This document shows positions 31,703 to 53,216 of a stretch of 64,000 bases of DNA, one piece after another; positions within the stretch are counted from its first letter, which is position 1, and each line of letters starts with the position of its first letter. Under the pieces are notes generated by a model, which searched no databases, was not told the origin of the DNA, and worked only from the letters and a program-made list of their open reading frames with translations. A program made the translations under genes and the position numbers. The stretch comes from Streptomyces sp. Mut1. GTDB lineage: Bacteria > Actinomycetota > Actinomycetes > Streptomycetales > Streptomycetaceae. The DNA lies in contig NZ_CP120997.1 in assembly GCF_030719295.1 (NCBI RefSeq), forward strand, positions 6,024,001 through 6,088,000. The letters are read 5' to 3'.

Positions 31703-33751
31703 GTGTCCAAACTGACCGACGTGCCCAAACGGATTCTGATCGGACGGGCCCTGCGCAGCGACAGGCTGGGGGAGACGCTCCTCCCCAAGCGCATCGCACT
31801 TCCCGTCTTCGCATCCGACCCGCTGTCCTCGGTGGCGTACGCACCCGGAGAAGTCCTCCTGGTGCTGTCCATCGCGGGTGTGTCGGCCTACCACTTCAGC
31901 CCGTGGATCGCGGTCGCGGTCGTGGTCCTCATGTTCACGGTCGTCGCCTCCTACCGGCAGAACGTGCACGCCTACCCGAGCGGCGGCGGCGACTACGAGG
32001 TCGCCACCACCAACCTCGGTCCCAAGGCCGGTCTGACCGTGGCCAGCGCCCTGCTGGTCGACTACATCATGACCGTCGCCGTGTCGATCGCCTCCGGGGT
32101 GGAGAACCTCGGCTCGGCGATCCCCTTCGTCGTCGAGCACAAGACGGGGTGCGCGGTCGCGGCCATCGTGCTGCTGACGGTGATGAACCTGCGCGGCGTC
32201 AAGGAGTCCGGCAAGCTCTTCGCCATCCCCACCTACCTCTTCGTGGCCGGCGTCTTCATCATGCTCATCTGGGGCGCCTTCCGCGGTCTCGTCCTCGGCG
32301 ACACCATGCGCGCCCCGACCGCCGCGTACACGATCAAGGCCGAGCACCAGGGCCTGGCCGGCTTCGCCCTCGTCTTCCTGCTGCTGCGCGCCTTCTCCTC
32401 CGGCTGCGCGGCGCTCACCGGTGTCGAGGCGATCAGCAACGGTGTACCCGCGTTCCGCAAGCCCAAGAGCAAGAACGCCGCGACCACCCTCGCCATGATG
32501 GGCCTGCTCGCCGTCACCATGTTCTGCGGCATCATCGCGCTGGCCATGGCCACCGACGTCAAGATGGCCGAGAACCCGGCGACGGACCTGGTCCGCGACG
32601 GCTCCCCGGTCGGCTCCGGCTTCGTCCAGGACCCGGTCATCTCCCAGGTCGCGGCCGCGGTCTTCGGCGACGGCACGTTCTTCTTCGTCATCCTCGCCGC
32701 CGCCACCGCCCTCGTCCTCTTCCTGGCCGCCAACACCGCGTACAACGGCTTCCCGCTGCTCGGCTCGATCCTGGCCCAGGACCGCTACCTGCCCCGCCAG
32801 CTGCACACCCGCGGGGACCGGCTCGCCTTCTCCAACGGCATCGTGCTGCTGGCCGGCGCCGCGATCCTGCTGGTCGTCGTCTACGGCGCCGACTCGACCC
32901 GGCTGATCCAGCTGTACATCGTCGGCGTGTTCGTCTCCTTCACGCTCAGCCAGACCGGCATGGTCCGGCACTGGAACCGCCACCTGCGCGTGGAGCGGGA
33001 CCAGGCCAAGCGCCGCCACATGGTCCGCTCCCGCGCGATCAACACCTTCGGCGCCTTCTTCACCGGCCTGGTGCTCGTCGTCGTCCTCGCCACCAAATTC
33101 ACCCACGGCGCCTGGGTGGCGCTGCTCGGTATGGTGATCTTCTTCGGCACGATGACCGCGATCCGCAAGCACTACGACCGGGTCGCCGAGGAGATCGCCG
33201 CCGACGCCGCCGCCCCCGACGAGTCCATCCGCCCCTCCCGGGTCCACTCGATCGTCCTGGTCTCCAAGCTCCACCGCCCCACCCTGCGCGCGCTCGCCTA
33301 CGCCAAGCTCATCCGTACGGACCACCTGGAGGCACTCTCCATCAGCGTGGACCCGGCCGAGACGAAGGCGCTCAGGGAGGACTGGGAGCGGCGCGGCATC
33401 AACGTACCGCTGAAGATCCTCGACTCGCCCTACCGCGAGGTGACCCGCCCGGTCATCGAATACGTGAAGAGCCTGCGCCGGGAGAGCCCGCGCGATGTGG
33501 TGAGCGTCTACATCCCGGAGTACGTCGTCGGCCACTGGTACGAGCACCTGCTGCACAACCAGAGCGCCCTGCGGCTCAAGGGCCGGCTGCTCTTCACCCC
33601 CGGCGTGATGGTCACCTCGGTCCCGTACCAGCTGGAGTCCTCCGAGGCGGCCAAGAAGCGCGCACGCAGGCGCGCGGACTGGATCGCCCCCGGCTCGGTG
33701 CGCCGCGGCCCGGTGGAACGCAAGCACAAGGACCCGACGCCGAAGGGCTGA
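31703..33751 (+). CDS. APC-superfamily transporter, KimA-like potassium importer candidate
   Basis: 682-aa membrane protein with about 12 helices in the first ~460 residues and a ~200-residue cytosolic C-terminal domain. The first helix carries FASDPLSSVAYAPGEVLLVL, closely resembling the SSDALSSVAY segment of Bacillus KimA, and PSGGGDYEVATTNLGPKAGL follows. KimA is a high-affinity K+/H+ importer inhibited by c-di-AMP binding to its C-terminal domain. The neighbouring trkA pair and kdp cluster support a K+ role over amino acid transport. GTG 31703 begins SKLTDVPKRILIGRAL; longer upstream starts are less likely. Confidence 0.88.
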   Translation: MSKLTDVPKRILIGRALRSDRLGETLLPKRIALPVFASDPLSSVAYAPGEVLLVLSIAGVSAYHFSPWIAVAVVVLMFTVVASYRQNVHAYPSGGGDYEVATTNLGPKAGLTVASALLVDYIMTVAVSIASGVENLGSAIPFVVEHKTGCAVAAIVLLTVMNLRGVKESGKLFAIPTYLFVAGVFIMLIWGAFRGLVLGDTMRAPTAAYTIKAEHQGLAGFALVFLLLRAFSSGCAALTGVEAISNGVPAFRKPKSKNAATTLAMMGLLAVTMFCGIIALAMATDVKMAENPATDLVRDGSPVGSGFVQDPVISQVAAAVFGDGTFFFVILAAATALVLFLAANTAYNGFPLLGSILAQDRYLPRQLHTRGDRLAFSNGIVLLAGAAILLVVVYGADSTRLIQLYIVGVFVSFTLSQTGMVRHWNRHLRVERDQAKRRHMVRSRAINTFGAFFTGLVLVVVLATKFTHGAWVALLGMVIFFGTMTAIRKHYDRVAEEIAADAAAPDESIRPSRVHSIVLVSKLHRPTLRALAYAKLIRTDHLEALSISVDPAETKALREDWERRGINVPLKILDSPYREVTRPVIEYVKSLRRESPRDVVSVYIPEYVVGHWYEHLLHNQSALRLKGRLLFTPGVMVTSVPYQLESSEAAKKRARRRADWIAPGSVRRGPVERKHKDPTPKG

Positions 33752-33875
33752 GGCGGGGTACCCCGGGGGACCCCTGGGAGGTCTTCCGATGGTCGGCGGC
33801 CGGACGAGACCGACGTAGACTCGTAGGTTGTTGTCCGGCCGTCGGCCACCCCCCTTCCCTTGGAGCCCGCCCCTC

Positions 33876-35246
33876 ATGCAGAACGAATCCACGTCGCCGC
33901 AGTCCGGGGAGACACAGACCGGGGAGACGCGGCCGGAGTCGCTCATCGGGCGGGAGTACGAGGTCGAGGTCGGTCCGGTCGCGCACGGCGGCCACTGCAT
34001 CGCGCGGACGGACGAGGGCCGCGTCCTGTTCGTACGCCACACCCTGCCCGGCGAGAAGATCGTCGCGAAGGTCACCGACGGCGACAACGACTCGCGCTTC
34101 CTGCGCGCGGACGCGGTACGGATCATCGAGGCGTCCAAGGACCGGGTGAAGGCCCCCTGCCCGTTCGCGGGCCCCGGCAAGTGCGGCGGCTGCGACTGGC
34201 AGCACGCCAAGCCGGGCGCCCAGCGCCGCCTCAAGGGCGAGGTCATCGCGGAGCAGCTCCAGCGCCTCGCGGGCCTCACCCCCGAGGAGGCCGGCTGGGA
34301 CGGTACGGTCATGCCGGCCGAGGGCGACAAGCTCCCGGCGGGCGAGGTGCCCGCCTGGCGCACCCGCGTCCAGTACGCCATCGACGAGGACGGCCGCGTC
34401 GGCCTCCGCAAGCACCGCTCGCACGACGTCGAGATCATCGACCACTGCATGATCGCCGCGCCCGGTGTCTCCGAGCTCGGCGTCGAGAAGCAGGACTGGC
34501 CCCAGATGGCCACGGTCGAGGCCATCTCCGCCACCGGCTCCCACGACCGCCAGGTCATCCTCACCCCCCGCACGGGCGGCCGCCTCCCCCTCGTCGAGCT
34601 GGACAAGCCCGTCTCGGTCCTCCGCGTCGACGAGCGCGACGGCGGCGTCCACCGCGTCCACGGCCGCGGCTTCGTCCGCGAACGCGCCGACGACCGCACC
34701 TACCGCGTCGGCTCCGGCGGCTTCTGGCAGGTCCACCCCCAGGCCGCCGACACCCTCGTCCGCGCCGTCATGCAGGGCCTGCTGCCCCGCAAGAACGACA
34801 CCGCCCTCGACCTCTACTGCGGCGTCGGCCTCTTCGCCGGCGCCATCGGCCAGCGCATCGGCGAGAAGGGCGCGGTCCTCGGCATCGAGTCCGGCAAGCG
34901 CGCGGTCGAGGACGCCCGCCACAACCTCAAGGACCTCGACCGCGTCCGCATCGAACACGGCAAGGTCGACCAGGTCCTGCCCCGCACGGGCATCACCGAA
35001 TGCGACCTCATCGTCCTGGACCCGCCCCGCGCGGGCGCCGGCAAGGCCACGGTGAAGCAGCTGGTGGGCCTGGGCGCCCGCCGCATCGCATACGTGGCCT
35101 GCGACCCGGCGGCGCTGGCGAGGGACCTGGCGTACTTCCGGGAGGGCGGATACCGGGTGCGGACGCTGCGGGCGTTCGATCTGTTTCCTATGACGCATCA
35201 TGTCGAGTGCGTCGCGATCCTTGAGCCTGCGGGCAAGGGTGCCTGA
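33876..35246 (+). CDS. Class I SAM-dependent RNA (uracil-5-)methyltransferase, TrmA/RlmD family with TRAM domain
   Basis: 456-aa enzyme methylating C5 of a uridine in tRNA or rRNA. N-terminal TRAM domain (EYEVEVGPVAHGGHCIARTD), iron-sulfur cysteine cluster CPFAGPGKCGGCDWQH, SAM-binding motif LDLYCGVGLFAGAI, catalytic-loop DPPRAGAGK and the nucleophile region YVACDPAALARDLAYF. The C-terminus RAFDLFPMTHHVECVAILEP is intact. The last ~20 codons fall in a 284-bp direct repeat found again at 45403, so this end may have been supplied by an integrated element. The gene is the insertion point of the 35-45 kb island. Confidence 0.94.
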   Translation: MQNESTSPQSGETQTGETRPESLIGREYEVEVGPVAHGGHCIARTDEGRVLFVRHTLPGEKIVAKVTDGDNDSRFLRADAVRIIEASKDRVKAPCPFAGPGKCGGCDWQHAKPGAQRRLKGEVIAEQLQRLAGLTPEEAGWDGTVMPAEGDKLPAGEVPAWRTRVQYAIDEDGRVGLRKHRSHDVEIIDHCMIAAPGVSELGVEKQDWPQMATVEAISATGSHDRQVILTPRTGGRLPLVELDKPVSVLRVDERDGGVHRVHGRGFVRERADDRTYRVGSGGFWQVHPQAADTLVRAVMQGLLPRKNDTALDLYCGVGLFAGAIGQRIGEKGAVLGIESGKRAVEDARHNLKDLDRVRIEHGKVDQVLPRTGITECDLIVLDPPRAGAGKATVKQLVGLGARRIAYVACDPAALARDLAYFREGGYRVRTLRAFDLFPMTHHVECVAILEPAGKGA

Positions 35247-35467
35247 CCTCCGTTTTTGCTCCTCCTGTGGGTCTCGACCTTTCCTCTCCGTGTAGCGGTT
35301 CGATCGGACGGATCGCTCCTTGAGGGCTCTCTGACCAGCGAATTCGCGAACGAGGCGCTTGCAGCGGCGACGCCCTCCAGTGGCTTCTGCGGGGTTCTTG
35401 ACGCTCGGGTGACGCTCGAAAAGGAAGTCTTCGGGTCTCCGCGTTGGCGATGCGCATGGCCGCCTGG
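35184..35467 (+). repeat. Left direct repeat of the island (methyltransferase 3' end plus downstream)
   Basis: Aligns with 45403-45685 at a constant offset of 10,219 bp until a one-base gap near 35430. By eye there are about 17 substitutions in 284 positions, clustered at the edges; about 230 bp in the middle are nearly identical. It covers the last ~20 codons and stop of the methyltransferase and about 220 bp beyond, including the palindrome GCGAATTCGC. Confidence 0.9.
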
Positions 35468-35506
35468 CCCCACGCTCCGCGGAGCCGAGCGCCACCCGAC
35501 CGCACT

Positions 35507-35532: not shown

Positions 35533-35727
35533 ATGGCGATGACACTTCGACTCCCGGATGACCTTGACGCGAAGCTCACTGAGCGGGCCCGTCGGGAGGG
35601 CCGCAGTAAGCAGGAACTCGCCATTGAGGCCATCCGTGACGCGCAGGACCGGGCCGAGCTGAAGGTCGATGACGTCCTGGCCGAGCTGATGGACAGCGAT
35701 GCGGAGATCCTGGACTACCTGAAGTGA
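35533..35727 (+). CDS. Ribbon-helix-helix (CopG-like) antitoxin
   Basis: 64-aa DNA-binding antitoxin. The N-terminal strand MAMTLRLPDDLDAKLTERAR followed by EGRSKQELAIEAI is the ribbon-helix-helix fold; the C-terminal helix (AELKVDDVLAELMDSDAEIL) would wrap the toxin. I start at ATG 35533 since the -10 box lies six bases upstream; the longer in-frame start at 35506 is inside the operator. The toxin start overlaps its stop by four bases. Likely represses its own promoter as a complex with the toxin. Confidence 0.88.
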   Translation: MAMTLRLPDDLDAKLTERARREGRSKQELAIEAIRDAQDRAELKVDDVLAELMDSDAEILDYLK

Positions 35728-36116
35728 CCGACGTGCGCTACATCCAGGTCGACGAAATCCTGGCCATCGCCCGTACGGTCAACGGTACGGAGCACAGCGT
35801 GCGTGACATGGGTCTTCTGGTGTCGGCGATTGAGCGACCCCGGACGAACGTGTTCGGAGCCGAGCTGTATCCCACGCTGCACGAGAAGGCCGCGGCATTG
35901 CTGCACTCCGTCGCCCGCAACCATGCGCTGATCGACGGCAACAAGCGCACCGCCTGGCTTGCCATGCGTGTCTTCCTGCGGTTCAACGGCGTCAGCGCGA
36001 GTACCGTCCCGCCGCCCGTTTCCGTGGCCGGGCCGTTCGTCGAGGAAGTCGCGCAGGACAACGTCGATGTACCGGCGATCGCCAAGCGCCTCGCGACCTG
36101 GTTCCCTGTTTCCTGA
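35724..36116 (+). CDS. doc: Death-on-curing (Doc/Fic family) toxin
   Basis: 130-aa Doc-type toxin. The Fic/Doc active-site motif is HALIDGNKRTAWLAM (about residues 67-81), matching HxFxxGNKR-type signatures with Ile-Asp before GNKR. Phage P1 Doc inactivates elongation factor EF-Tu by phosphorylation, blocking translation. The N-terminal YIQVDEILAIARTVNG and LLVSAIERP are also typical. GTG start overlaps the antitoxin stop (GTGA). The module lies directly inside the left edge of the island and may stabilise it. Confidence 0.92.
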   Translation: MTDVRYIQVDEILAIARTVNGTEHSVRDMGLLVSAIERPRTNVFGAELYPTLHEKAAALLHSVARNHALIDGNKRTAWLAMRVFLRFNGVSASTVPPPVSVAGPFVEEVAQDNVDVPAIAKRLATWFPVS

Positions 36117-36480: not shown

Positions 36481-36618
36481 ATTCGTGAACGCGGTAAGCG
36501 GATTCGATCGTCGGCCATCACAAAGTGACGAAAGCGGCACATGAAACCTAAGGATGGGCATACTCTGCGGGGATTACCGCAGGTGGGCCGGGGCGGCCTG
36601 TAGTGCGGCGGAGGTTTC

Positions 36619-38913
36619 ATGGGTGGGGACCCGTATGTGTCAGCAAAAGGGGCCGGTGAGGGTGAGTGGACGGGGGCGCTGGATCCGTACGGTGACAGGG
36701 CTCTCCTGACCGCTGCCATGGCGGAGGGCTACGACGCCGTCCCCTACCAGGAACGCAGTCGGCTGCGGAGCTATCTCGAAGCGGTTGTCGCGGCCCGTCC
36801 GGCGCCGGTGCACACCACCGTCGCCTTCAACGCCGTGTACTTCGGGTATGCCCTCGGAGGCGACGGCTATGGCGGAAGCCCGCTGTGCCTCGACGACTTC
36901 CCCGTCATCACCTTCGGCGAGTGCGCTCCCGTGCTCCCGGTCGGTGCCATGGTGTGTGTCGCCACCGGGTCGGACCCGCTCTACGCCGAGATCGTCTACC
37001 GGGAGGGCGCGCACACGGAGGTGGGCGCGCTCGGTGACGTACCGGCCTGGGTGTCGGGGGCGCCCGTGGGCGCAGAAGGTCCGGGGAGGCCGGGTGCGAA
37101 TGCCGCGCCACGGCGCAGAGAATTGCTGGTCCCGGACTTCCACGCCTTCGGTCCGGCCCTGAGCCTTTCACCGGCTCAGCTTCATCGCTTGCGCACGCGC
37201 GGGCGATGGATCAATGAGGACGGGCATGTCGTCGTCGACGTGTGCTACCCGTCCTTGCGAGAAGCCCAACGCGACGATCTGACGGCCTACGCGGAACATC
37301 TCCTGACGACGGCTCGGGAGCAGCTGCTCAGCCCCTTCATCCCTGTTTCCCTTGCTTCCCTGGTGGGAGGCAAGCACGACGACGATCTGCGGGCCGGACT
37401 GTTAGGTCTCCTCGACACGGTGCGGGGTGTCCTTAATTCCAGTACCGTGTTGCGCACCTGGGGTCACTACGTCATGACCCGCACCTCCCTCGCGGACTGC
37501 TGGCGGGACACCGGACCGCTGGGCGGCGACGACCTGAGGACCCTCGTGGCCGCGGTCGAGCGCGCAGCCACCCCGGCGAGACGACGACACGGCCTCCTCG
37601 CTCCGGTCACTGTGTACACGGCGGTCGGACCACGGCTCCGCGGTTTTCCCGGGACGGCGGAACGGCTCAGGGGGGTGGGGTACGCCGCTGCGGTGTGCCG
37701 GGCGAACGTGGCGCTCGCCGACGTGGTCCAAGGGGACAGCGACCAGGGTCTGTTCGGCAACGGCTCCCGGATCACGCTCGACGACGCCGTCGAGGGGGGA
37801 GGGGTATGGCGGTCCCACCATCCTGGCGACGCGGAGGCACCCGGAAACCCTCTGGTCCCGGCCGGGCGCGGCTGGAACTCCACACTGCTGGCACTGCCTG
37901 AGCCGGAAACGGAAGCGGAGCTGGAACCGGTAGATGCGCCCCTCGCCGACGACGACGCCCTCGGCGCCGGCGAACTTCTGCGAAGCGACGCGCAGGAGAT
38001 CGTCTGGCGGGCGCCTCTGCGGCTGGCCCATCTCATCGACGGCTGGTTCCCCCTGCCTCCGTATGTCGCGGAGGAGCTTCGCCGGTCGCACGGCGCGCAC
38101 CCCACGCTTCGCCTCGAACTCGACCATGCTGGTGAGACGTTGGACCAGAAGGAGACTGTGCAGGACATCGCGGCCGAACTCGGGCACGACTCGCTTCGGT
38201 TGACGGGAATCGTCTGGCCCGGTGACTTCTTCGCCGGCCTGATGCTGGAGCTGCGCCGGCTCCGTGGCGACACGATCATTCGGCTGGCCACCACACGGTT
38301 GAAGGAATCGGTGCGGGCCGGTGACCGTGAGACGGGGCACTGTTACGACCCTCGCGTACTCACCAGGGAAGATGTGCCGGGCAGCAGCCGCCACGGTGAC
38401 AGCGCGGCCGGGCTGGGTCCCCGGCAACTAGTGATGCGCACCGTGCGCCGTTGCGGCCTGCTCACCCTGGACGGCCATGCCCTGATGGACCGGTCGGTCC
38501 TGCCGAGGGCGGTCTACGGAAGCCGACCGGCCCGGTCGCAGGCCGCCGCCCTGGACTGGGCTGTCGCCGAACTGCTCGCTGGGCGTCTTCTGGAGGCGGC
38601 CCTAGGCAGCATGGACGCCTGGGGGCAACCGCACTTCCCCCCGCGTGACGGACAACGGAGCATTCCCCTAATCGGCTACCGCCCCGCCAGGCCGCGGGTG
38701 ATACGTCCGTGGGGCGGTGGCGAATCGGACCTTGAGGGACTGCACGGCGCTCAGTTCGTCGCAGGTCATCTGCGCCGCTTGCGGCCGGGGTGTCTGCCCA
38801 GCGACGTTCAGCGCGCGGCCTTCCGGGAGCACTGCCGCAGGCTCGGCAAGGCGGACGGCTGGGAACTGCCGTCCGGCTACACGTTCGTTACCGAGCACAC
38901 GCGCGGCCACTGA
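36619..38913 (+). CDS. Unassigned 764-aa protein, first gene of a two-gene island module
   Basis: I do not recognise a family. ATG 36619 is fixed by a GGAGG four bases upstream. No membrane segment or signal peptide is apparent. Visible stretches: an N-terminal part with LLTAAMAEGYDAVPYQERSR and LPVGAMVCVATGSDPLYAEI; a helical middle (DLTAYAEHLLTTAREQLL; LLDTVRGVLNSSTVLRTWGH); an acidic linker near residues 430-455 (PEPETEAELEPVDAPLADDD); then LAHLIDGWFPLPPYVAEELR and LTGIVWPGDFFAGLMLELRR; a basic, Arg-rich C-terminus. No P-loop, nuclease or methylase motif is seen. The 2017-aa ATPase gene starts 88 bp downstream in the same direction, so the two probably act together. Confidence 0.8.
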   Translation: MGGDPYVSAKGAGEGEWTGALDPYGDRALLTAAMAEGYDAVPYQERSRLRSYLEAVVAARPAPVHTTVAFNAVYFGYALGGDGYGGSPLCLDDFPVITFGECAPVLPVGAMVCVATGSDPLYAEIVYREGAHTEVGALGDVPAWVSGAPVGAEGPGRPGANAAPRRRELLVPDFHAFGPALSLSPAQLHRLRTRGRWINEDGHVVVDVCYPSLREAQRDDLTAYAEHLLTTAREQLLSPFIPVSLASLVGGKHDDDLRAGLLGLLDTVRGVLNSSTVLRTWGHYVMTRTSLADCWRDTGPLGGDDLRTLVAAVERAATPARRRHGLLAPVTVYTAVGPRLRGFPGTAERLRGVGYAAAVCRANVALADVVQGDSDQGLFGNGSRITLDDAVEGGGVWRSHHPGDAEAPGNPLVPAGRGWNSTLLALPEPETEAELEPVDAPLADDDALGAGELLRSDAQEIVWRAPLRLAHLIDGWFPLPPYVAEELRRSHGAHPTLRLELDHAGETLDQKETVQDIAAELGHDSLRLTGIVWPGDFFAGLMLELRRLRGDTIIRLATTRLKESVRAGDRETGHCYDPRVLTREDVPGSSRHGDSAAGLGPRQLVMRTVRRCGLLTLDGHALMDRSVLPRAVYGSRPARSQAAALDWAVAELLAGRLLEAALGSMDAWGQPHFPPRDGQRSIPLIGYRPARPRVIRPWGGGESDLEGLHGAQFVAGHLRRLRPGCLPSDVQRAAFREHCRRLGKADGWELPSGYTFVTEHTRGH

Positions 38914-39001
38914 CCTTCCGCGCGTCCACGGCTCCGGCCCACACTTCTTTCCGTCGCTCAAAGCCTCCTTCCGCTCACCCACAGAAACGGAGTGCGTGTA
39001 C

Positions 39002-42000
39002 ATGCAGGACTGCTACCGCGTTGTCACAGAGCCGCCATGGTCCCCGCCGAGCGTCTCGGCCGAGGATCTGGAAGGCATGGCTGCCGCGCTCAATGCCTTG
39101 GACTCCCCGGCCGTCGCCGCTCTGAACGACCTCACGGCGGACATGGTGGAACTTGCTTTCAACTCGCTGCGACCCAAGCAGCGCCAGGAGTTGCTCACCA
39201 GTCTGGGCATCCGCATGTCGGCCCCCCGACGGGTGAGCACTGCTCTGTGCCGGGACGTCCTCACCAGGCTGCGGCGCGAGGCGCGGCAGCACACCTGCAC
39301 ATGTGGGATCAAGGGACTCACGGGCACTGTGATGAACCAGGTCGGCGACTTCGTCCTGGCGCACGACGGGGAGCCGGTTCCCGACCCTGTTGCCCGCTGG
39401 GGCGCCACGCTGGTCAGGGCTACCGTGTTTGCGTGGTGTAACGCCTCCGTCACCGACGCCCACATCCTTGCCTGGGCTGCGGACCAGGACTGGTTCGGGG
39501 CGACGGCCGACGATGAGGAGGCGGCCCGGCTCGCCGCCGTCGCTGCCGCGGCGCGGCCCCTCGTGGAGACGTACCCCGATTTCGCCTTTGGATCGACAGA
39601 AGACGACGGGCTGGCGCTCGCGGAGGGCAGTGAACCAGGGCGCGCTGCCATCACCGACCGGCCGGTCATCGGCGCCCCGGAGACCGCAGCAGCGGACCCC
39701 GGCACTTCGCACGAGAAGACCGCAATCACGTCCGACAGCACAGGGACCAAGGTGGGCACAGCTTCCGAGGAGGCATGTCGGAAGCTGGAGTCCGCCCTGG
39801 CGCGGGCCCGCCAGGCCGCGGAGGAGGTCACCGATGCGGTCATGGACGGTCGCCCTCCGCAGGACGAGGACCTGGCTAGGCTCGCTGCGCTGAGCACTGT
39901 TTTCAACGATGTGGACGCGGTGTTCCGGGTTGCCGGGATCGAGGGGGTGCCTCTTCGCCTAGAGGACATGACGCGTGCTGCGCATGCACACCGGACAGCG
40001 CGGGAGCGTGACCTCCAGGCCCGCGAGTCGCTGCGGGAACTGCTGGATGTCGCCTGCCGCCCGGACAGCTCCGCCGCTGCCGCCGCTGCCGCCGGGGCCG
40101 TGCGCGGCGCGGCTCGCCGCCTGCTGGACGAGCCGGTGTGGGAGGAGCTGCACCACGAGGAGAGCGCCGCGCTCGCTGCCTTGGCTCAGCTCATTAGGCT
40201 GGGACGACAGGCGGATGCCGCCACGGAGATCCTGGCGCTGCAGGGAGAAGTCGTACGGGTCCTGCCCACGTGCGCCATGGCCGTGCTCATCGCTCCCGAG
40301 CTGATGCTGGACCAGCCGATGGATGGTCCGGTGTGCCCCGCCGGCAGCGACGTGGCACACGGCACCGCCGAATCCGCCGATGCCCAGACGACCGCAGAAC
40401 ACGAAACCGTGCAGTCGGCCGCATCGACCGAGACGATTGCGCCCCAGCCCGCCGCCGAGCCGGAAACCACCACGACCGCTGTGCCGGTGCCCGCCCCCGG
40501 GGCAGACGTCGGGCTGGCCGCCGACAGCGACTCGGCGCCCTCCACCTCCGCTGACGCGCCCGTCCAGGCACTCGCCGCACCCACGCTTTCCCCCGTCGAG
40601 GACATGCTCATCCAGGAAGCGGCCCCGGCGGGTGGTGACGTCACCGATGAGGCCGCTATCGAGGGGGTCCTGGCGCGTTTGATCATGGAACGGCGCTTCG
40701 GACTCGCCCACCATGTGTCAAGGGCTGCCGGCCACCCCGAGCCCCAGGTGGCGGCGGTCCGCCTGGCCGGTGCCGCGGCGTTGCTCACGTCCGGGGACAG
40801 CCAGAGTGCCCGGCTGACGGCGGACCTGCTCCAGAGGTACGGCGGATATGCGGGCCAGGACACCGAGGGCATCGAACTCCTCCTGCTGCCCGCCCTGCTG
40901 ACTATCGCGCTGATCAGCGGTGACCACGCTGCGGGCGCTCAGCTCAAGGCGCTGGTGCCGAGGCTCCCGGGCCGGCTGGCGGATGCGGCGGCCGCCGTCG
41001 CCGACCGTGCCCTCAGCGGTGCCCTGCTGATCGCTTCGCCGCTGGTCGCCGACGTCTCCGGGACCGAGGCCCGGCTGCGGGAACTACGCGATCAGAGTCG
41101 TGCCCTGCTCTCGCCACAGCGGCTGCGGTTCGCACGGGCGACGGAGATCGCCAAACGCTGGCTTGCCCCCGACGGGATGCTCGGCTCGCTGTTCACGACC
41201 GTCGTCGGCGACGACCGCGACGCGCTGCAGCAGGTGCGTGAGCAGGCCGATCGGCTGTCGAAACTGGCCGAGGTCAACAGCGAGATCGACCGCATGGACC
41301 GCAAGTACCGCTCGTCCAGCGGCAAGCCGCTCCAGGGCTCCGGGCGGCAGGATCTGGTGCATCTCGTGGAGCGGGCCGTCAGCCTGGTCAAGGAGTGGTG
41401 CCTGGCGGTCGACGGCACCCGTCGCGGCGACCGTTCCGACGGCAGCCGGGCGGTCAAGGAGGTTGCCTCCCTGCGCCAGTCCTTGCTAAACGGCAGGGAA
41501 GCGGCGCTGGGCGAACTGGAGCGGTTGGCGCGGCGCCCGGACGCCCTCTCGGGCGCGATGGCCTGGGCGGCTCACACCTCGATGGAGGAGCTGTTCGCTC
41601 TGCTGGCTGATGCCACCGTGACCACGGGTTCCGGCGGTCCCGTCGACCCAGCGCTCGTTCTGGACGCGGAGCTGCTGAAGGTGTGTGACACCCGTGACGA
41701 GCGGCCGTCGCTCGACGAACTGCTGACCGCGGTCCACCGGAGCTGGCAGGAGGCACTGGACGAGCGGCTCTCCCACGACGCGTTCACCGCGGCTCGTGAC
41801 ATCGTCGAGCTGGCCGGGCGCGGGTTGTTGCCTGCCGCTGGGGCGGGGGAGTTCGTCCCGCCTGCGGAAGCCGAGATCGACGACAGGGAGGCCACCCGGC
41901 GTGCGCAGCTGCGGAAGGCACACGACGCACTCGTCGCCGAGCTGCACCGTGCCCAGGCTGACGGTGCCGTGACCGAGGATCAGGACCTGGGTCTTCAAGA

Positions 42001-45000
42001 GTTGCTCGCCGACGCCCACAACAGCCTTGAAATCGGTGAACGACACGACCTGCTGCACGTGCGGCGGGCGCTCGACACGGTACGGAGTGGCCTGCCGGCC
42101 TTCCGGGAGCAGGCGGCGGACCGAATCCGGGCTCGGCTCGACGCCCTGGATCCTTCCGTAGAAGAGCGGGCCCAGGTCCTGCGACGCCTGGAGACGAACG
42201 ACCTGGCCACCGCTGCTGACCTCGTCTACTTCCTGGAGATCGGCGAGCCGGTCCCGGAGATCGAGGGCGGCGAGTCCCATCTGACCGAGTTCTTCCCGGC
42301 CGTGCCCGACGGCCTGCCAGGAGGGATCGACCATGAGCTCGTCGACCTGGTCCGGTCCGGCGGAAAGCATCCGATGGTCCCCGTCCTGGACTACGGCGGC
42401 CTCTCGACCGATGAGGCGGCGCTGGCGGCCGACGCCCTCGGCGAGTGGCGCGCGCTTGCCGCCACCGAACGCAAGGACCGGCTCCAGGTGGCTCCGACGC
42501 GACAGGTGCCGCCTCTCCTCAAGCTCCTCGGCTACGACGCCAAGAGCGCCAGGCCGCTCGACGACCGATCCCAGCACCGGCGGGAATACCGTCTTTTCGA
42601 AGCAACCGGCGTGGAGATCAACGGTAGAGCGAAAGCGCCCGCGTTCGGCTCGCAGATCAAAGAGCAGGGCGGCAACCTGCGGGTGATGATGGTCTGGGGC
42701 CGACCGCCCGCCAAGGTCATCATGAGCTGGGCGGAGCGCGACACCAGCGGAGCGAGCCTTCTCGTTGTCTACTTCGGCACACTGAGCTGTGAAGCCCGAG
42801 TCGAACTCGCCGCCGGTTCTGATCGGTTGCAGCCGCTGCTCGTGGTGGACGATGCCGCCCTCGCCTATCTCGCGGCCTGCGGCAACCGCCAGGTCAGCGC
42901 CGCCACGCAGACCCTGCTGCCCTTCTCCGGCGTCAACCCGTACATCAGGGAGAAGCGCGGCCGGATCGGCGGCGAGATGTTCTACGGCCGCGACGCCGAA
43001 CGTAAGAGCATCCTCGATCCGCGCGGCACCCAGGTCATCTACGGGGGCCGGGGCCTGGGCAAGTCGGCGCTGCTCGCCGACGCCGGGGAACTGTTCACGG
43101 AGCAGCGCCCCGGATATCACCAGACGGTGTACATCAACCTCGACCAGGAGAACATCGGCAAGGGCAGCTCGCGCGGGCCGGAGGCGCTGTGGAGCGTCCT
43201 CCTGAGAGAGCTGACCGTGGCACAGGTACTCGATGACCGGCCGCAAGGGTCCGGAAAGCGACAAGAGGCCTCCGAGCGGGTGCGCGCCGGCATCCGTGCC
43301 TGGCTGGACGGAGACTCCCGTCGCCGACTACTGATCCTGCTCGACGAGTGCGACCAGTTCTTCGAGGCCGACGCCCCGAGGTTCGACCAGACCAAGAAGC
43401 TCAAGGGCCTCGGGTCCGACACCAAGGACGCGGCAAAGGTCGTATTCGCCGGACTTCACTCCGTGCAGCGCTTCTCCAAGCTGGCGAGCAACGGGCCGTT
43501 CGGCCACCTCGCTCAGACCCCGAAGGTGATCGGCCCGCTGGCTCCCCAGTCGGCTGCGGAACTGCTGGTCGAGCCGATGCGGGCGCTCGGGTTCGAGTTC
43601 AAGGACCTGGATCTAGTCAACCGAGTGCTCGGCTACTGCTCGTACCAGCCGTTCCTGCTGCAGATGTTCGGTCACCGGCTCGTCGAGCTGATGCACCGCA
43701 AGCGGACGCGGCGCGGCGCCGGGGAACCTCCTTATGAGGTGGAGGTGACCGACATCGAAATCGTGGAGTCGGACGCCGCGCTCCGGGACGGTATCTCGGC
43801 GGCTTTCAAGGACACGCTGAGCCTCGACCACCGCTATGACGTGATCGCCAATGTGCTGGCGTACCACGCCCGCCATCACGGCCTAGAGGTGCGGCTGAGT
43901 GACACCGAGTTGCGCGAGGAGTGCGAGACGTACTGGCGTATAGGCTTCGAACAGCTCGATACCGAGGGGTTCCGCGCCTACCTCTCCGAGATGGTGGGTC
44001 TCGGCGTCCTCGCTCCCAACCACGACGGATTGGGCTGGCATCTGCGCGGCCCCAATGCTCTGCGCATGATAGGGACCTCCCACGAGGTGGAGGCACGTCT
44101 GCTTAGGGCCGAACGGGACTGCAAATTGCAGGAGAGCATCGTCCAGGAGGGCCGCCCCGAGCTTCCCGACGGGCGGCCGGCTCCGCTCACCAACACCCAG
44201 CTCGACGATCTCTTGGGCGAGCGGTCCAACCGGACCCGAGTCGTCCTCGGCAGCACCGCCACCGGAGTCACCGAAGTCGCCCGGACTTTGCGTACGATCG
44301 CCGGGCCGATCGACGGCTGGACGCTGCCGCCCGTGGGCAAGCCCAGCGTCTACAAACAGGAACTCACCGGCGGACGCCCCCGGGAACGACGTGTTGTCAT
44401 CAGCGACTTCGTCAACTATCGGGAGCCAGTCCGTCCGGAGACCTGTCGCGAAGCTGTCGACCTGGCCGAGACGCTGCTGCCCGCCACTGCGGGGGTCACC
44501 CGTGCGGTCGTGATCGTCACCGACCCCGCTCAGCTCACCCTGTGGCGCTCCCTGCTGACGGGAAACGAGCCCCCCTCGGCCGCACCAGTGGTGCTGCGTA
44601 GGCACGACCACCGCAGTTTGCGCGGCTGGGCCCAGCGCATCAACGTGTTCCACACGGAGGACCGTCTGGACCGTCTCCACGAACTGACTGGTGGCTGGCC
44701 GCTTCTGGTGCACCAGGCCCATCGCCTGCACGAGGAATTGGGCAACCCCGACGATGTGTTGCGTCGTCTGGCCGACCTCCGCGCGGACCGGGCTCAGGCC
44801 CGCGCATTCGCCGAGGCGACCGGCGTGTACGCGGATCCGCTGCTGGCCGCTGGATACCAGGCACTCACCGACGAGTTCAAGGACGGCGTCTTCGACCTGG
44901 AAGGCGCGGTGACCGCCGTCGCGCTCAAGATCGATGACGAGGACGAGGCGCGGTGGATCGTCGACTTCCTCGACGCCCTTCAGGTCTTCGATCGCGAGGA

Positions 45001-45055
45001 CACCCAGCTGCGCCTGGAACCGGTGCTCCGGGAGTGCGTGGCGCTCAACGGGTGA
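39002..45055 (+). CDS. Giant STAND/AAA-like P-loop ATPase (2017 aa), second gene of the island module
   Basis: Very large cytoplasmic protein. Residues 1 to about 430 are helical with a CxC pair (HTCTCGIK); an Ala/Pro/Thr/Glu linker spans about 440-535; a long helical-repeat-like region runs to about 1300. Then comes an ATPase: FSGVNPYIREKRGRIGGEMF-YGRDAE lead-in, Walker A GGRGLGKSALL with Lys1354, Walker B RLLILLDECDQFF with Asp1448-Glu1449, and a winged-helix-like region after about 1590. A second partial module follows (about 1730-1930, ending LHELTGGWPLLVHQAHRL). The lead-in and GGWPLLV wording are typical of STAND ATPases, which often sense invaders. No nuclease or protease motif recognised. 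ATG 39002 has GGAG nine bases upstream; GTG 38996 is an alternative. Confidence 0.85.
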   Translation: MQDCYRVVTEPPWSPPSVSAEDLEGMAAALNALDSPAVAALNDLTADMVELAFNSLRPKQRQELLTSLGIRMSAPRRVSTALCRDVLTRLRREARQHTCTCGIKGLTGTVMNQVGDFVLAHDGEPVPDPVARWGATLVRATVFAWCNASVTDAHILAWAADQDWFGATADDEEAARLAAVAAAARPLVETYPDFAFGSTEDDGLALAEGSEPGRAAITDRPVIGAPETAAADPGTSHEKTAITSDSTGTKVGTASEEACRKLESALARARQAAEEVTDAVMDGRPPQDEDLARLAALSTVFNDVDAVFRVAGIEGVPLRLEDMTRAAHAHRTARERDLQARESLRELLDVACRPDSSAAAAAAAGAVRGAARRLLDEPVWEELHHEESAALAALAQLIRLGRQADAATEILALQGEVVRVLPTCAMAVLIAPELMLDQPMDGPVCPAGSDVAHGTAESADAQTTAEHETVQSAASTETIAPQPAAEPETTTTAVPVPAPGADVGLAADSDSAPSTSADAPVQALAAPTLSPVEDMLIQEAAPAGGDVTDEAAIEGVLARLIMERRFGLAHHVSRAAGHPEPQVAAVRLAGAAALLTSGDSQSARLTADLLQRYGGYAGQDTEGIELLLLPALLTIALISGDHAAGAQLKALVPRLPGRLADAAAAVADRALSGALLIASPLVADVSGTEARLRELRDQSRALLSPQRLRFARATEIAKRWLAPDGMLGSLFTTVVGDDRDALQQVREQADRLSKLAEVNSEIDRMDRKYRSSSGKPLQGSGRQDLVHLVERAVSLVKEWCLAVDGTRRGDRSDGSRAVKEVASLRQSLLNGREAALGELERLARRPDALSGAMAWAAHTSMEELFALLADATVTTGSGGPVDPALVLDAELLKVCDTRDERPSLDELLTAVHRSWQEALDERLSHDAFTAARDIVELAGRGLLPAAGAGEFVPPAEAEIDDREATRRAQLRKAHDALVAELHRAQADGAVTEDQDLGLQELLADAHNSLEIGERHDLLHVRRALDTVRSGLPAFREQAADRIRARLDALDPSVEERAQVLRRLETNDLATAADLVYFLEIGEPVPEIEGGESHLTEFFPAVPDGLPGGIDHELVDLVRSGGKHPMVPVLDYGGLSTDEAALAADALGEWRALAATERKDRLQVAPTRQVPPLLKLLGYDAKSARPLDDRSQHRREYRLFEATGVEINGRAKAPAFGSQIKEQGGNLRVMMVWGRPPAKVIMSWAERDTSGASLLVVYFGTLSCEARVELAAGSDRLQPLLVVDDAALAYLAACGNRQVSAATQTLLPFSGVNPYIREKRGRIGGEMFYGRDAERKSILDPRGTQVIYGGRGLGKSALLADAGELFTEQRPGYHQTVYINLDQENIGKGSSRGPEALWSVLLRELTVAQVLDDRPQGSGKRQEASERVRAGIRAWLDGDSRRRLLILLDECDQFFEADAPRFDQTKKLKGLGSDTKDAAKVVFAGLHSVQRFSKLASNGPFGHLAQTPKVIGPLAPQSAAELLVEPMRALGFEFKDLDLVNRVLGYCSYQPFLLQMFGHRLVELMHRKRTRRGAGEPPYEVEVTDIEIVESDAALRDGISAAFKDTLSLDHRYDVIANVLAYHARHHGLEVRLSDTELREECETYWRIGFEQLDTEGFRAYLSEMVGLGVLAPNHDGLGWHLRGPNALRMIGTSHEVEARLLRAERDCKLQESIVQEGRPELPDGRPAPLTNTQLDDLLGERSNRTRVVLGSTATGVTEVARTLRTIAGPIDGWTLPPVGKPSVYKQELTGGRPRERRVVISDFVNYREPVRPETCREAVDLAETLLPATAGVTRAVVIVTDPAQLTLWRSLLTGNEPPSAAPVVLRRHDHRSLRGWAQRINVFHTEDRLDRLHELTGGWPLLVHQAHRLHEELGNPDDVLRRLADLRADRAQARAFAEATGVYADPLLAAGYQALTDEFKDGVFDLEGAVTAVALKIDDEDEARWIVDFLDALQVFDREDTQLRLEPVLRECVALNG

Positions 45056-45402: not shown

Positions 45403-45685
45403 TTTCCGATGGCCCATCATGTCGAGTGCGTCGCGATCCTTGAGCCTGCGGGCAAGGGTGCCTGACCTCCGTTTTTGCTCCTCCGGTGGGTCTCGACCTT
45501 TCCTCTCCATGTAGCGGTTCGATCGGACGGATCGCTCTTTGAGGGCTCTCTGACCAGCGAATTCGCGAACGAGGCGCTTGCAGCGGCGACGCCCTCCAAT
45601 GGCTTCTGCGGGGTTCCTGACGCCTGGATGACGCTCGAAAAGGAAGCTTCGGGCCTCCGCGGCAGCGATGCGCAAGGCCGCCTGG
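45403..45685 (+). repeat. Right direct repeat of the island (methyltransferase gene-end remnant)
   Basis: Counterpart of 35184-35467. In frame it reads FPMAHHVECVAILEPAGKGA and stop, a headless remnant of the methyltransferase C-terminus differing from the intact gene mainly by Thr to Ala, followed by the same downstream sequence. Homology to the gene ends abruptly upstream of 45403. Confidence 0.9.
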
Positions 45686-45935
45686 TCCTACGTTTTGAAG
45701 AGAGGGCCGGATGCGGGGAGGTCCCGGCAGCCGGCCCCTCCCTTGCGCAGGTGCAGTCAGAGGCAGCCGGCCGGCCCGGCACCGACCGGACGCGGTGCCG
45801 TCGGTGACTTGGCGTCCTGCCGAGTGGGCCTGTCGCGGGCAGCCCCGCTGCAGGTCGGCGGGGCCTCATGCGTCGACTCACGGCACGCTGCGGTCGGTCC
45901 CGCCCGGACTACGGGTTGTTCATCGGCAGCACGAT

Positions 45936-46110
45936 GCGGCGTGCACCCCTGGCCGGGTGAGGTGTCGGTCGATGCGCCTCCGTGAGTCGTGACCAGGGCG
46001 TGGACGATGGCCAGTCCGGGGTCCTGGTCGGCGACGAGGTTGTGTGCCTCGCCCGGTCCGGATGACGCGCGTACCGGCCCGTACTCGCCGTACACGAGGA
46101 CTCGTTCCCG
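45936..46110 (-). pseudogene. Possible C-terminal relic of a sensor histidine kinase
   Basis: Minus-strand translation contains DPGLAIVHALVTTHGGAS followed by TDTSPGQG, resembling the G2 box and end of histidine kinase ATPase domains (GLGLAIVxALVxAHGGxxxxxSxPGxG). The upstream part (VLVYGEYGPVRASSG) fits the F-box/linker only loosely. No H-box is present. The rest of the 45.69-46.40 kb gap shows no gene. Confidence 0.35.
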
Positions 46111-46399
46111 TACCCCGCCCCCACCGTGCCAGTCGGCGTTCCGCGACCGCCGCTGCGTTCTTCGGCGGGGCCCTGCCGTCCGAGCCGTGCGCCTGCCGGC
46201 CGGCGTCGTTGGGAAGTCGGTCCGGGCCGAGGGCGACGTCAGGTCCGACGTCGGTCCGGTTCCGAACGGCTGGCAGGAGATGGTGCGTGACGCCCGGGGA
46301 GAGCGGGAGGGAGGCGGCCGGCGGGCCGAGGAAGTTGGTCTCCATCTCCCGGCGCACCCCTGCCGGCTGCCTTCCTCGTGATCAACCTTGTTTGTTGCG

Positions 46400-46427
46400 T
46401 TGACATTTACTCCTGGGCTCGTACCGT
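46400..46427 (+). promoter_or_regulatory. SigA/HrdB-type promoter of the LPMO gene
   Basis: Consensus -35 TTGACA at 46400-46405, 16-base spacer, -10-like TACCGT at 46422-46427, directly before the CebR palindrome. Confidence 0.65.
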
Positions 46428-46441
46428 TGGGAGCGCTCCCA
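46428..46441. promoter_or_regulatory. CebR operator (cellobiose/cellotriose-responsive)
   Basis: TGGGAGCGCTCCCA is a perfect 14-bp palindrome identical to the CebR box described for cellulose and cello-oligosaccharide genes in Streptomyces. It lies immediately after the -10 element, over the expected transcription start, so binding would block transcription until cello-oligosaccharides release the repressor. Confidence 0.88.
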
Positions 46442-46472
46442 TGCATGTCCGCGACCACAAGGAGTTCCCCCC

Positions 46473-47147
46473 ATGCGCAAACACATCCCCTTATCCGGGC
46501 GTTCCCGGTCCATCCTTCGTCGGCCCCTCTCGGTGCTCGTGTCGCTGTTCGCCGTGGTGGTCGGCGCGTTGGTCTGGTCGGCGCCCGCCCAGGCCCACGG
46601 CTCCGTCGTCGGACCTCCTTCCCGCGCCTATCAGTGCTGGCAGAAGTGGGGCAGCGACCACATGAACCCGGCCATGCAGACCGAGGACCCCATGTGCTGG
46701 CAGGCCTTCCAGGCCAACAGTGACACCATGTGGAACTGGATGAGCGCCCTTCGCGACGGCCTCGGTGGCCAGTTCCAGGCGCGGACCCCGGACGGCACGC
46801 TCTGCAGCAACAACATTTCGAGGAACGCCAGCCTGGACGTGCCCGGGCAGTGGAAGGCGACCGACGTCGGCAGTAACTTCTCGGTCCACGTGGCCGACCA
46901 GGCCTCCCACGGTGCCGACTATTTCAAGGTCTACGTGAGCAAGCAGGGCTTCGACCCCGAGGCTCAGTCCCTGGGCTGGGGCAACCTCGACTTCATCACG
47001 CAGACAGGTAGCTTCGGCCCGTCGACCGACTACACGTTCGACGTCAGCACCTCCGGCTACGCCGGACGTCACATCGTGTTCACGATCTGGCAGGCCTCGC
47101 ACACCGACCAGGCCTACATGTGGTGCAGTGACGTGAACTTCGGCTGA
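46473..47147 (+). CDS. Secreted AA10 lytic polysaccharide monooxygenase, cellulose-type
   Basis: 224-aa copper enzyme that oxidatively cuts crystalline polysaccharide outside the cell. The signal peptide ends APAQA-H, giving mature N-terminal His42, which forms the histidine brace with His146 (ADQASHGADYFKVY). Four cysteines are present (for example YQCWQKWG and YMWCSDVNF). The mature protein is a single domain of about 183 residues, with no cellulose-binding module. Its wording (HGSVVGPPSRAYQCW; FTIWQASHTDQAYMW) closely resembles S. coelicolor LPMO10B, a C1/C4-oxidising cellulose LPMO. ATG 46473 follows AAGGAG. The CebR box upstream supports cellulose as the trigger. Confidence 0.93.
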   Translation: MRKHIPLSGRSRSILRRPLSVLVSLFAVVVGALVWSAPAQAHGSVVGPPSRAYQCWQKWGSDHMNPAMQTEDPMCWQAFQANSDTMWNWMSALRDGLGGQFQARTPDGTLCSNNISRNASLDVPGQWKATDVGSNFSVHVADQASHGADYFKVYVSKQGFDPEAQSLGWGNLDFITQTGSFGPSTDYTFDVSTSGYAGRHIVFTIWQASHTDQAYMWCSDVNFG

Positions 47148-47226
47148 TCCGTTGAGCGTGGCACGGCACCGGCCTCTTCCGGGCGCCGATGACGCGCCCC
47201 ACGGCATGACGAGCCCCGTCGGGGCG

Positions 47227-47263
47227 GGGAGCCCTCCGGTTGCCCTGCCCCCGCGGGGCTCCC
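47227..47263 (+). terminator. Probable terminator after the LPMO gene
   Basis: GGGAGCCC at 47227-47234 pairs with GGGCTCCC at 47256-47263; the loop is GC-rich and long. A second small hairpin (GCCCCG/CGGGGC) lies just upstream near 47213. Confidence 0.5.
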
Positions 47264-47327
47264 GTGGTCCGAAGGGGGCAGCCCTGAAGCGTCCGGCAAG
47301 CGCGGCCACCCGCAAACGCTCGTCTTT

Positions 47328-47339
47328 GGTCCAGACCTA
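47328..47339. promoter_or_regulatory. Chitinase box / DasR-responsive element
   Basis: TGGTCCAGACCT matches the 12-bp chitinase-promoter repeat of Streptomyces and the core of the DasR dre site (TGGTCTAGACCA). It sits directly upstream of the chitinase -35 element. Predicts repression by the GntR regulator DasR, released by amino-sugar metabolites. Confidence 0.82.
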
Positions 47340-47340
47340 T

Positions 47341-47369
47341 TGACGGGCCCGGCCCCCGCTTCTACGCTC
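47341..47369 (+). promoter_or_regulatory. Chitinase promoter
   Basis: TTGACG at 47341-47346, 17-base spacer, TACGCT at 47364-47369, beginning one base after the dre site. Confidence 0.6.
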
Positions 47370-47460
47370 CCGTCGACTGCCGCACCGCATCTCCCCAGTT
47401 CATCCGGGGCCGTGCGGCCGCGCCCCTCACGCACGCCCACGCCCGCGGCTCGGGGCGAGA

Positions 47461-49116
47461 ATGGAGCACAGCATGTTCCGTCGGAGGATTCGGACTCTCC
47501 CCGAGGCGGGCGGCGGCCATGCGGCCGCCGGCCGGGCCCGGCTCAGCTCGACCGTTGTGACCCGTACGATCGCCGGGCTCAGCGCCGCCACCGTCGTCGG
47601 CGCCTGCGTCACCCTGGCCGGTTCCGGATCGGCCGGCGCCGCCGATGCCACCAACCTGGTGGCCAACTCCGGCTTCGAGAGCGGCCTTTCCGGCTGGTCC
47701 TGCACCAACAGTTCCGGCCAGGTCGCCGGCAGCCCGGCGCACTCCGGCTCGTCCGCGCTGAAGGCCACACCCTCCGGTCTGGACAATGCCGAGTGCTCCC
47801 AGACGGTCAATGTGCAGCCCAACTCGAAGTACACGCTGAGCGCCTTCGTCCAGGGCAGTTACGTCTACCTCGGCGCCAGCGGCACCGGTGCCTCCAGCGA
47901 GCCGCAGACCTGGACACCCAACTCCTCCTCGTACAGCGAGCTCAGCGTCGACTTCACCACCGGTGCGAACACCACATCGGTGACGGTCCACCTGCACGGC
48001 TGGTACGGGACGCCCGCGTACCTCGCGGACGACGTGTCGCTCACCGGCCCCGGTGGCACGACGCCCCCGCCGACCACGCCGCCGCCCACCGATCCGCCCA
48101 CGACACCGCCTCCCACCGACCCGCCCACCACCCCGCCGCCCACCGATCCTCCGGGCGACGACACCTGTGCCACGAAGCCCAAGCCGACCGGCAAGGTGTT
48201 GCAGGGGTACTGGGAGAACTGGGACGGCGCTTCGAACGGCGTTCACCCCGGCATGGGCTGGACCCCCATCACCGACAGCCGGATCGCCCAGCACGGCTAC
48301 AACGTCATCAACGCAGCCTTCCCCGTGATCCTCTCGGACGGAACCGTCCTGTGGGAGGACGGCATGGACGCGGGTGTGAAGGTGTCGACGCCGGCGGAAA
48401 TGTGTGAGGCCAAGGCGAACGGCGCCACGCTCCTGATGTCCATCGGCGGCGCGGCCGCGGGCATCGACCTGTCGTCGAGCAAGGTCGCCGACCGTTTCGT
48501 GGAGACCGTCGTCCCGATTCTCAAGAAGTACAACTTCGACGGGATCGACATCGACATCGAGACCGGGCTGTCCGGCAGCGGGAACATCAACACGCTGTCC
48601 GCCTCCCAGTCCAACCTGATCCGCATCATCGATGGTGTGCTGGCCAAGATGCCGGCGGGCTTCGGCCTGACGATGGCGCCGGAGACCGCGTACGTCACCG
48701 GCGGCAGCGTCACCTACGGGTCCATCTGGGGCGCGTACCTGCCGATCATCAAGAAGTACGTCGACAACGGCCGGCTGTGGTGGCTCAACATGCAGTACTA
48801 CAACGGCAGCATGTACGGCTGCTCGGGCGATTCGTACCAGGCCGGAACCGTGGAGGGCTTCGCCGCTCAGACCACCTGCCTCAACAACGGCCTGACCATC
48901 CAGGGCACCACGATCAAGGTGCCGTACGACAAGCAGGTGCCCGGCCTGCCGGCCCAGCCCGGCGCGGGCGGCGGCTACATGGCGCCCAGCCAGGTCAGCC
49001 AGGCGTGGAACACGTTCAACGGCTCGCTCAAGGGCCTTATGACGTGGTCCCTCAACTGGGACGGCTCGAAGGGCTGGTCCTTCGGCAACAACGTCAAGTC
49101 CCTGCAGAACCGCTAG
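47461..49116 (+). CDS. Secreted GH18 chitinase with CBM16-like domain
   Basis: 551-aa exported chitinase. A long N-terminal signal region (TIAGLSAATVVGACVTLAGS) ends near SAGAADA. It is followed by a carbohydrate-binding domain of CBM16 type (NLVANSGFESGLSGW to about residue 200), a Pro/Thr linker with repeated TTPPPTDPP units, and a GH18 barrel starting KVLQGYWENWDG. The catalytic motif FDGIDIDIETGL has the proton donor at about Glu367, and SIGGAAAG is the substrate-binding strand. Ends without a further module. ATG 47461; an in-frame ATG four codons later is also plausible. The dre box upstream fits induction by chitin products. Confidence 0.93.
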   Translation: MEHSMFRRRIRTLPEAGGGHAAAGRARLSSTVVTRTIAGLSAATVVGACVTLAGSGSAGAADATNLVANSGFESGLSGWSCTNSSGQVAGSPAHSGSSALKATPSGLDNAECSQTVNVQPNSKYTLSAFVQGSYVYLGASGTGASSEPQTWTPNSSSYSELSVDFTTGANTTSVTVHLHGWYGTPAYLADDVSLTGPGGTTPPPTTPPPTDPPTTPPPTDPPTTPPPTDPPGDDTCATKPKPTGKVLQGYWENWDGASNGVHPGMGWTPITDSRIAQHGYNVINAAFPVILSDGTVLWEDGMDAGVKVSTPAEMCEAKANGATLLMSIGGAAAGIDLSSSKVADRFVETVVPILKKYNFDGIDIDIETGLSGSGNINTLSASQSNLIRIIDGVLAKMPAGFGLTMAPETAYVTGGSVTYGSIWGAYLPIIKKYVDNGRLWWLNMQYYNGSMYGCSGDSYQAGTVEGFAAQTTCLNNGLTIQGTTIKVPYDKQVPGLPAQPGAGGGYMAPSQVSQAWNTFNGSLKGLMTWSLNWDGSKGWSFGNNVKSLQNR

Positions 49117-49120
49117 GTTC

Positions 49121-49152
49121 GACGCGCCCGGCCCGCCGGGGCCGGGCGCGTC
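49121..49152 (+). terminator. Strong hairpin terminator after the chitinase gene
   Basis: GACGCGCCCGGCCC at 49121-49134 pairs perfectly with 49139-49152 around GCCG, four bases after the stop codon. Confidence 0.9.
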
Positions 49153-52836: not shown

Positions 52837-53216
52837 TCAGTCCTTGTAGTCCGGCGCGATCCGTTCCATCAGGCGCAGCAGGGCGGCCCAGGCCAGGTCG
52901 TACGCGTCGTGGTCCTCGAAGTCGGAGGAGGCGTCACCCTCGCCGGTGAGCTGCTGGGCGGTGTACTCGGCCACCTGGTCGGAGGGCAGGACGAGTTCGG
53001 TGCCGCCGGCCTGGGCGGTGACCTGGATCTCGCACGCCTTCTCCAGGTGGAACATTGCGCAGGAACGCCTGCTTGGCGCTGTCGCCGACGGCTGGCGGGC
53101 CGTGGTTGCGCAGGATGAGCGCGGGGTGGGTGCCGAGGTCGGTGACGGGGCGTCCCTGTTCGGCGAGATGAGGGCGACGCCCTCGTAGTCGTGGTGGCCG
53201 ACGCGGTTGTGGTACG
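52837..53216 (-). pseudogene. Class II aldolase/adducin family fragment, frameshifted
   Basis: The C-terminal half of a class II aldolase. YHNRVGHHDYEGVALISPNR begins the fragment; in another frame the middle reads PVTDLGTHPALILRNHG, the conserved core; after a return to the first frame comes MFHLEKACEIQVTAQAGG and DLAWAALLRLMERIAPDY to the stop. At least two compensating frameshifts and loss of the N-terminal metal site make it non-functional. Its open frame continues without a stop into the recombinase remnant upstream, forming a chimeric ORF. Confidence 0.75.

Follow-up and report, generated by a model that had tools for sequence, protein, structure and literature searches.

What do two large adjacent genes in an island of the Streptomyces sp. 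Mut1 genome encode, and what might they do for their host? The genes, here called P1 and P2, lie in a stretch of 64,000 nucleotides (assembly GCF_030719295.1, contig NZ_CP120997.1, positions 6,024,001 to 6,088,000, forward strand), which is referred to as a whole as the window and whose own coordinates are used throughout. The answer that we consider probable is that P1–P2 forms a mobile module for defence, which targets nucleic acids and descends from a system of three genes. A first-pass annotation, made from the letters of the window alone, had reported two same-strand genes 88 bp apart, and both open reading frames (ORFs) were located on the plus strand where it had placed them: P1 at 36619–38913 (764 amino acids) and P2 at 39002–45055 (2017 amino acids), with 38914–39001 between them. 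The P2 start used here is the ATG at 39002, which gives the 2017 amino acids; the mechanical ORF list begins at an upstream GTG, at 38717. Because relatives preserve both reading frames and the whole-gene ratio of nonsynonymous to synonymous substitution (dN/dS) in four pairs was 0.18–0.25 for P1 and 0.22–0.26 for P2, sequence comparison indicates that P1 and P2 are genes and not chance ORFs.

As judged from its structure model and matches, P2 is a STAND-type ATPase, with a core and an attached winged helix at residues 1306–1692 (42917–44077, plus strand), in keeping with the STAND-like character that had been proposed for the second gene. Both Walker motifs are intact. The Walker A sequence GGRGLGKSALL contains Lys1354 and the Walker B sequence LLDECD contains Asp1448 and Glu1449, the residues that the earlier reading had picked out, and all three are invariant across 32 aligned relatives. 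In a Foldseek search, Avs3 (8dgc) matched P2 at an E-value of 6.9e-6, with an alignment confined to the ATPase-containing model and outside residues 1–1099; ORC/Cdc6, TnsC, and MuB were also among the structural matches. Within P2, dN/dS in the four pairs was 0.08–0.14 for the ATPase and 0.37–0.45 for residues 1–560. The stretch at residues ~1742–1900 (44225–44701, plus strand), which is without a Walker lysine and has TGGWP at its end, is a possible degenerate second NTPase, as suggested by the alignment and the modelled alpha/beta order.

P1 matched no Pfam family at E ≤ 10 and no NCBIfam family at E ≤ 1, in agreement with the annotation's statement that it carries no known motif. Neither protein matched a PADLOC 2.0.0 (2023) family at E ≤ 1, and P2 likewise matched no named system in Pfam, PADLOC, or NCBIfam; the description of the pair as undescribed thus holds for these three collections. 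The P1 model suggests a B3-like DNA-binding fold (residues 454–580; 37978–38358, plus strand) followed by a winged helix (residues 590–693; 38386–38697, plus strand), such that P1 looks like a DNA-binding protein. The B3 stretch had a dN/dS of 0.26–0.48 in the four pairs, and neither the Pfam search nor the structure comparison revealed a nuclease, methylase, or other recognised catalytic motif in P1. The 764-amino-acid protein had been suggested as a possible effector, but since its model suggests a B3 fold and a winged helix, a role in recognition or as an adaptor fits better. At two other loci (L062:9606–10856 and L063:9919–11133), the C-terminal domain of P1 forms a gene of its own, adjacent to those for a UvrD-type helicase and a NERD-kinase protein that we read as PglW-like.

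The linkage of the two genes was examined in 295 Streptomyces genomes. Any match to P1 was found in 28, comprising 22 with full-length P1 (including G007, G046, and G110, in which it was pieced together from several matches or confirmed by tblastn), one with a remnant (G192), and five with the C-terminal part only (G287, G026, G279, G157, and G195). In every one of the 22 genomes with full-length P1, P2 comes next, although it is interrupted in G007 and G075, and the same order holds in 27 of the 28 named loci, the exception (L059) stopping at a contig edge; homologues of the two genes, far from being rarely adjacent, occur side by side, as the first-pass annotation had anticipated. The last third of P2 matched in 48 of the 295 genomes, many of them weakly: 23 at 44% identity or more (among them truncated copies without P1 in G042 and G079), 13 at 31–38% identity that represent a wider family without P1, and the remainder as short pieces or with E-values near 1e-4. 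The P2 family is rare, with matches at E ≤ 1e-15 in 8 of 396 Actinomycetota genomes, matches in 29 of 72,556 plasmid records (13 of the 29 were inspected), and none in 50,697 phage records. Broken or remnant copies of the module were encountered at L033, L037, and L058 and in G192, G124, G161, G193, and G028.

The pair had been presented as a two-gene system. From the sequences compared, the module is not solely that, because a third gene of ~1970 amino acids, here called A, lies directly upstream of P1 in 6 of the 22 genomes (L060, L066, L067, L071, L072, and L073) and also adjoins the pair in a distant relative from another family (G513, locus L157). In the latter, P2 (2088 amino acids), A (1998), and a P1-like gene (479) stand in a row with 4-bp overlaps, and the P1-like protein aligns to P1 with an hhalign probability of 96.9 over 232 columns. 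By Pfam, A joins in one chain a DinG-type helicase module and a second SF2 helicase module, the latter of which we take to be RecQ-like; by PADLOC, it matches typeIV_DinG (6.9e-66) and DpdF (2.4e-61). For its exonuclease domain, a match was obtained in L060 (RNase_T, 7e-8), and in L073 and L157, where no domain score was obtained, the exonuclease motifs, presumably of the kind named DEDD, were read by eye. Across 50 scanned genomes, A was full length in six, always adjoining P1, whereas 17 further genomes that carry P1 (that of the window included) and 27 others gave only separate helicase-domain matches; full-length A was found in none of the 27 scanned genomes without an adjoining P1–P2 pair. 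A is missing from 16 of the 22 genomes with full-length P1, including that of the window. In a tree of P2 (quick method, midpoint root, 67 rows), the two-gene form makes up one clade of 31 rows, the A-bearing rows fall outside it, and L068/L069 form a second A-less pair. The five changes counted for A include L067, and the placement of L037 and L067 carries no meaning because these rows are fragments cut differently from the others. The simplest reading of these sequences is an ancient three-gene system from which A was lost at least twice, to which gain of A may be the alternative.

The island itself is bounded by two 244-bp direct repeats (35184–35427 and 45403–45646) that are 95% alike, the left copy beginning within the 3′ end of an RNA-methyltransferase gene (gene end at 35246). 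Apart from P1 and P2, the only genes seen between the repeats are two island passengers, a 64-amino-acid ORF with the candidate label of antitoxin (35533–35727, plus strand), found in only some close loci, and a 130-amino-acid Doc/Fic toxin (35724–36116, plus strand; Pfam Fic, 2.7e-15; TIGR01550), found by tblastn in 7 of the compared loci. The island is therefore without other metabolic content, as had been noted, and no integrase was seen between its two repeats. G155, which belongs to the same species, lacks both P1 and P2 and has an empty site with one copy of the repeat left; window positions 33024–35474 and 46191–49145 align to G155 with the single repeat between them, and 45777–46190 is also absent there. 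These alignments indicate that the module is mobile and sits in a strain-specific island, which bears out its earlier placement in an island. The same site in G005 (L170) carries a different 1.7-kb cargo and a second repeat copy 73% alike. Of 48 scanned loci, 10 have this methyltransferase gene close to the module, all of them among the 28 named ones, and 8 contain part of the repeat more than once; with its duplicated ends and varying cargo, the 3′ end of the RNA-methyltransferase gene appears to be a recurrent insertion site. An alignment of 15 rows from two-gene loci at different sites shows conservation that starts ~110 bp before P1, over a shared promoter block, and in most rows unrelated sequence further upstream, which also speaks for mobility, as do the scattered occurrence of P1 and P2 among genomes and the presence of P2 relatives on plasmids. 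Inside this block falls an inverted repeat, CTGCGG-n6-CCGCAG (36565–36582, 54 bp upstream of P1; 0.01 expected in shuffles), which is a possible operator; of the 27 two-gene loci, 20 keep it with no more than one mismatch. Further along the window, a 1096-amino-acid SF1 helicase with a PLD nuclease domain (49420–52710, minus strand) adjoins a serine recombinase (52837–53724, minus strand), the two being read as another defence-like insertion; the compared G155 stretch stops aligning past window position 49145.

Relatives of P2 occur with other partners. In 13 Streptomyces loci (L110–L122), a protein of ~430–565 amino acids adjoins the P2 relative. The sequence RNxx[AS]H, which we take to be a HEPN motif, lies close to the C-terminus in all 13 of these partners and in those from Salinibacter (L141) and Thiodictyon (L144). 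The motif is also present at L158 and, among the 17 partners tested, is absent from that of L156. Pfam support for HEPN was weak in L141 and L144 (HEPN_Swt1, E 0.017–0.03), and no HEPN match was obtained for the partners of L111, L113, and L118. The branch typified by L111 (6699–14242, a P2 relative and its RNxxxH-motif partner) may occupy a fixed chromosomal site, since its neighbours are TldD/PmbA, TyrS, and Fab-type genes. Fifteen distant loci were then read (L139–L146 and L155–L161; L163, with a partial gene, was left out), and nucleic-acid or defence-type company was seen at 12, a count without a control set, and at none of L142, L155, and L161. On plasmids of Azospirillum (L140:4304–14074) and Microvirga (L159:3991–14175), pPIWI-RE is fused to a P2-like ATPase in giant proteins. 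PprDinG is encoded near P1–P2 at L139, and a PprDinG-like gene lies upstream of P1–P2 on an S. xanthophaeus plasmid. The P2 relatives elsewhere stand beside a PLD-SNF2 helicase (L143), a DrmE_C protein and a DEAD helicase (L145), E1/JAB genes (L146), GmrSD-like and Eco57I-type proteins (L156), A and P1-like genes (L157), or PD-(D/E)XK and UvrD with Druantia III genes (L160). Upstream of the P2 relative at L155 (12974–19093), ~6 kb are without a called gene and possibly contain an rRNA operon.

The first-pass annotation had also expected such genes to lie near defence genes, and while the distant relatives do stand beside defence-type genes, the flanks of the Streptomyces modules are indicative only. 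PADLOC families matched at E ≤ 1e-8 numbered 141 among 130 flank proteins (of 178 neighbours) and 41 among 130 controls (of 310, from 20 regions ~150 kb away), a difference that remains indicative because tallies were kept by family and not by protein, related loci repeat the same neighbours, and the controls come from only 10 of the flank genomes. Strong flank matches include Wadjet JetA2/JetB2, a CBASS cyclase, and PD-Lambda-1; the control matches include PD-T4-6, WYL, Csa3, and mad3.

If P1–P2 is a defence module directed at nucleic acids, P1 would provide recognition by binding DNA with its B3 domain and its winged helix, and P2 would be an ATP-dependent STAND switch whose fast-evolving N-terminal third may sense the trigger. 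Nucleotide exchange would then lead to assembly of P2 and commitment to act on the DNA marked in this way. In modules that retain it, A, with its 3′–5′ exonuclease, DinG helicase, and second SF2 helicase, would unwind and degrade that DNA. As A is gone from the window form, the pair may instead recruit a host nuclease-helicase, or its ATP-driven assembly on DNA may block the invader. Of this picture, the gene linkage, the modelled folds, the selection, the mobility, and the lack of A in the window genome are observed, and the defensive function, the choice of DNA as target, and the sequence of events are inferred.

A STAND ATPase could also belong to an abortive sensor of the Avs or NLR-like type, in which P2 senses a phage protein and brings about cell death or arrest and P1 is a toxin or sensor cofactor and not a DNA reader. 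We regard this as unlikely: the window pair has no HEPN partner, the HEPN assignment is itself weak by profile in the relatives that carry the motif, P1 has predicted DNA-binding folds and no recognised catalytic motif, and the third gene of the relatives is a nuclease-helicase, which suits attack on DNA. The ORC/Cdc6, TnsC, and MuB matches of P2, the mobility of the P1–P2 unit, and the DinG-type helicase parts of A, which come from a repair family, would also suit a selfish or genome-maintenance role, with P2 acting as a loader of the TnsC/ORC type and P1 selecting targets or serving as a repair adaptor, either for a mobile element or in a replication-stress pathway; to this we give a rather small probability.

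The absence of A from most genomes with full-length P1, together with the broken and remnant copies, might further suggest that the pair is a decaying, functionless remnant left after loss of the nuclease-helicase. Such decay appears very improbable, as two-gene modules with long, intact frames make up a large clade, dN/dS is ~0.2 overall and lower still in the ATPase, and the promoter block of the two-gene form has been retained. Of these readings, we favour the mobile defence module. A broader proposal, which we advance tentatively and hold somewhat less probable than not, is that P2 founds a cross-phylum family of ~2000-amino-acid STAND ATPase hubs with an interchangeable nucleic-acid module: a B3/winged-helix protein with or without the exonuclease-DinG-helicase, a HEPN-like RNase, a fused pPIWI-RE, a PLD-SNF2 helicase, or a DrmE-like or GmrSD-like protein. 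The window would then hold a two-gene descendant that has lost the nuclease-helicase and works through recognition and ATP-driven assembly on DNA, or through host nucleases. If this is true, a single immune ATPase would be the common switch for several restriction-like and RNase-like modules, and NLR-like STAND proteins would be connected to systems that target DNA, pPIWI-RE among them. With forms of three genes, of two genes, and with a HEPN-type partner available in nature, one can ask which component senses, which recognises, and which kills, and how function might persist once the nuclease is lost.

P2 resembles Avs and other bacterial STAND ATPases, for which we assume the label NLR, in having a STAND fold within a giant protein, but differs in its B3/winged-helix partner, in the exonuclease-DinG-helicase of the full forms, and in the lack of a PADLOC match at the threshold given above. 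The B3-like fold that P1 is predicted to have is shared with the restriction enzymes EcoRII, LlaJI, and UbaLAI, whereas no nuclease or methylase domain was found in P1 and its ATPase partner is STAND and not McrB-like. Shango (SngA/B/C) likewise combines a large ATPase with an SF2 helicase, and the SngC profile matches A at 2.9e-11; in contrast, the SngB model (439 positions) gives no match at P2 in the window genome or G035, no TerB gene was noticed, and across three genomes the SngB matches lie elsewhere or are weak, the best in the window genome being off-module with an E-value of 0.5. DISARM and Druantia come into view through the distant P2 relatives beside the DrmE_C protein and the Druantia III genes, none of which is present in the window island. 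According to the published account, pPIWI-RE three-gene systems have a DinG-type helicase partner (PMC3702460). To that extent they are like the three-gene forms of the P2 type, which have a DinG-type partner too, and the P2-like ATPase is itself fused to pPIWI-RE in Azospirillum and Microvirga; unlike them, P1 has no pPIWI-RE Pfam match at E ≤ 10, and no triad REase gene was seen in the window island. The combination of STAND, B3, and DinG parts and the swapping of partners around a P2-type ATPase were not found in Pfam, PADLOC, NCBIfam, or the literature searched, while the parts themselves are of known kinds: STAND immune ATPases, B3 restriction domains, and DinG-based systems.
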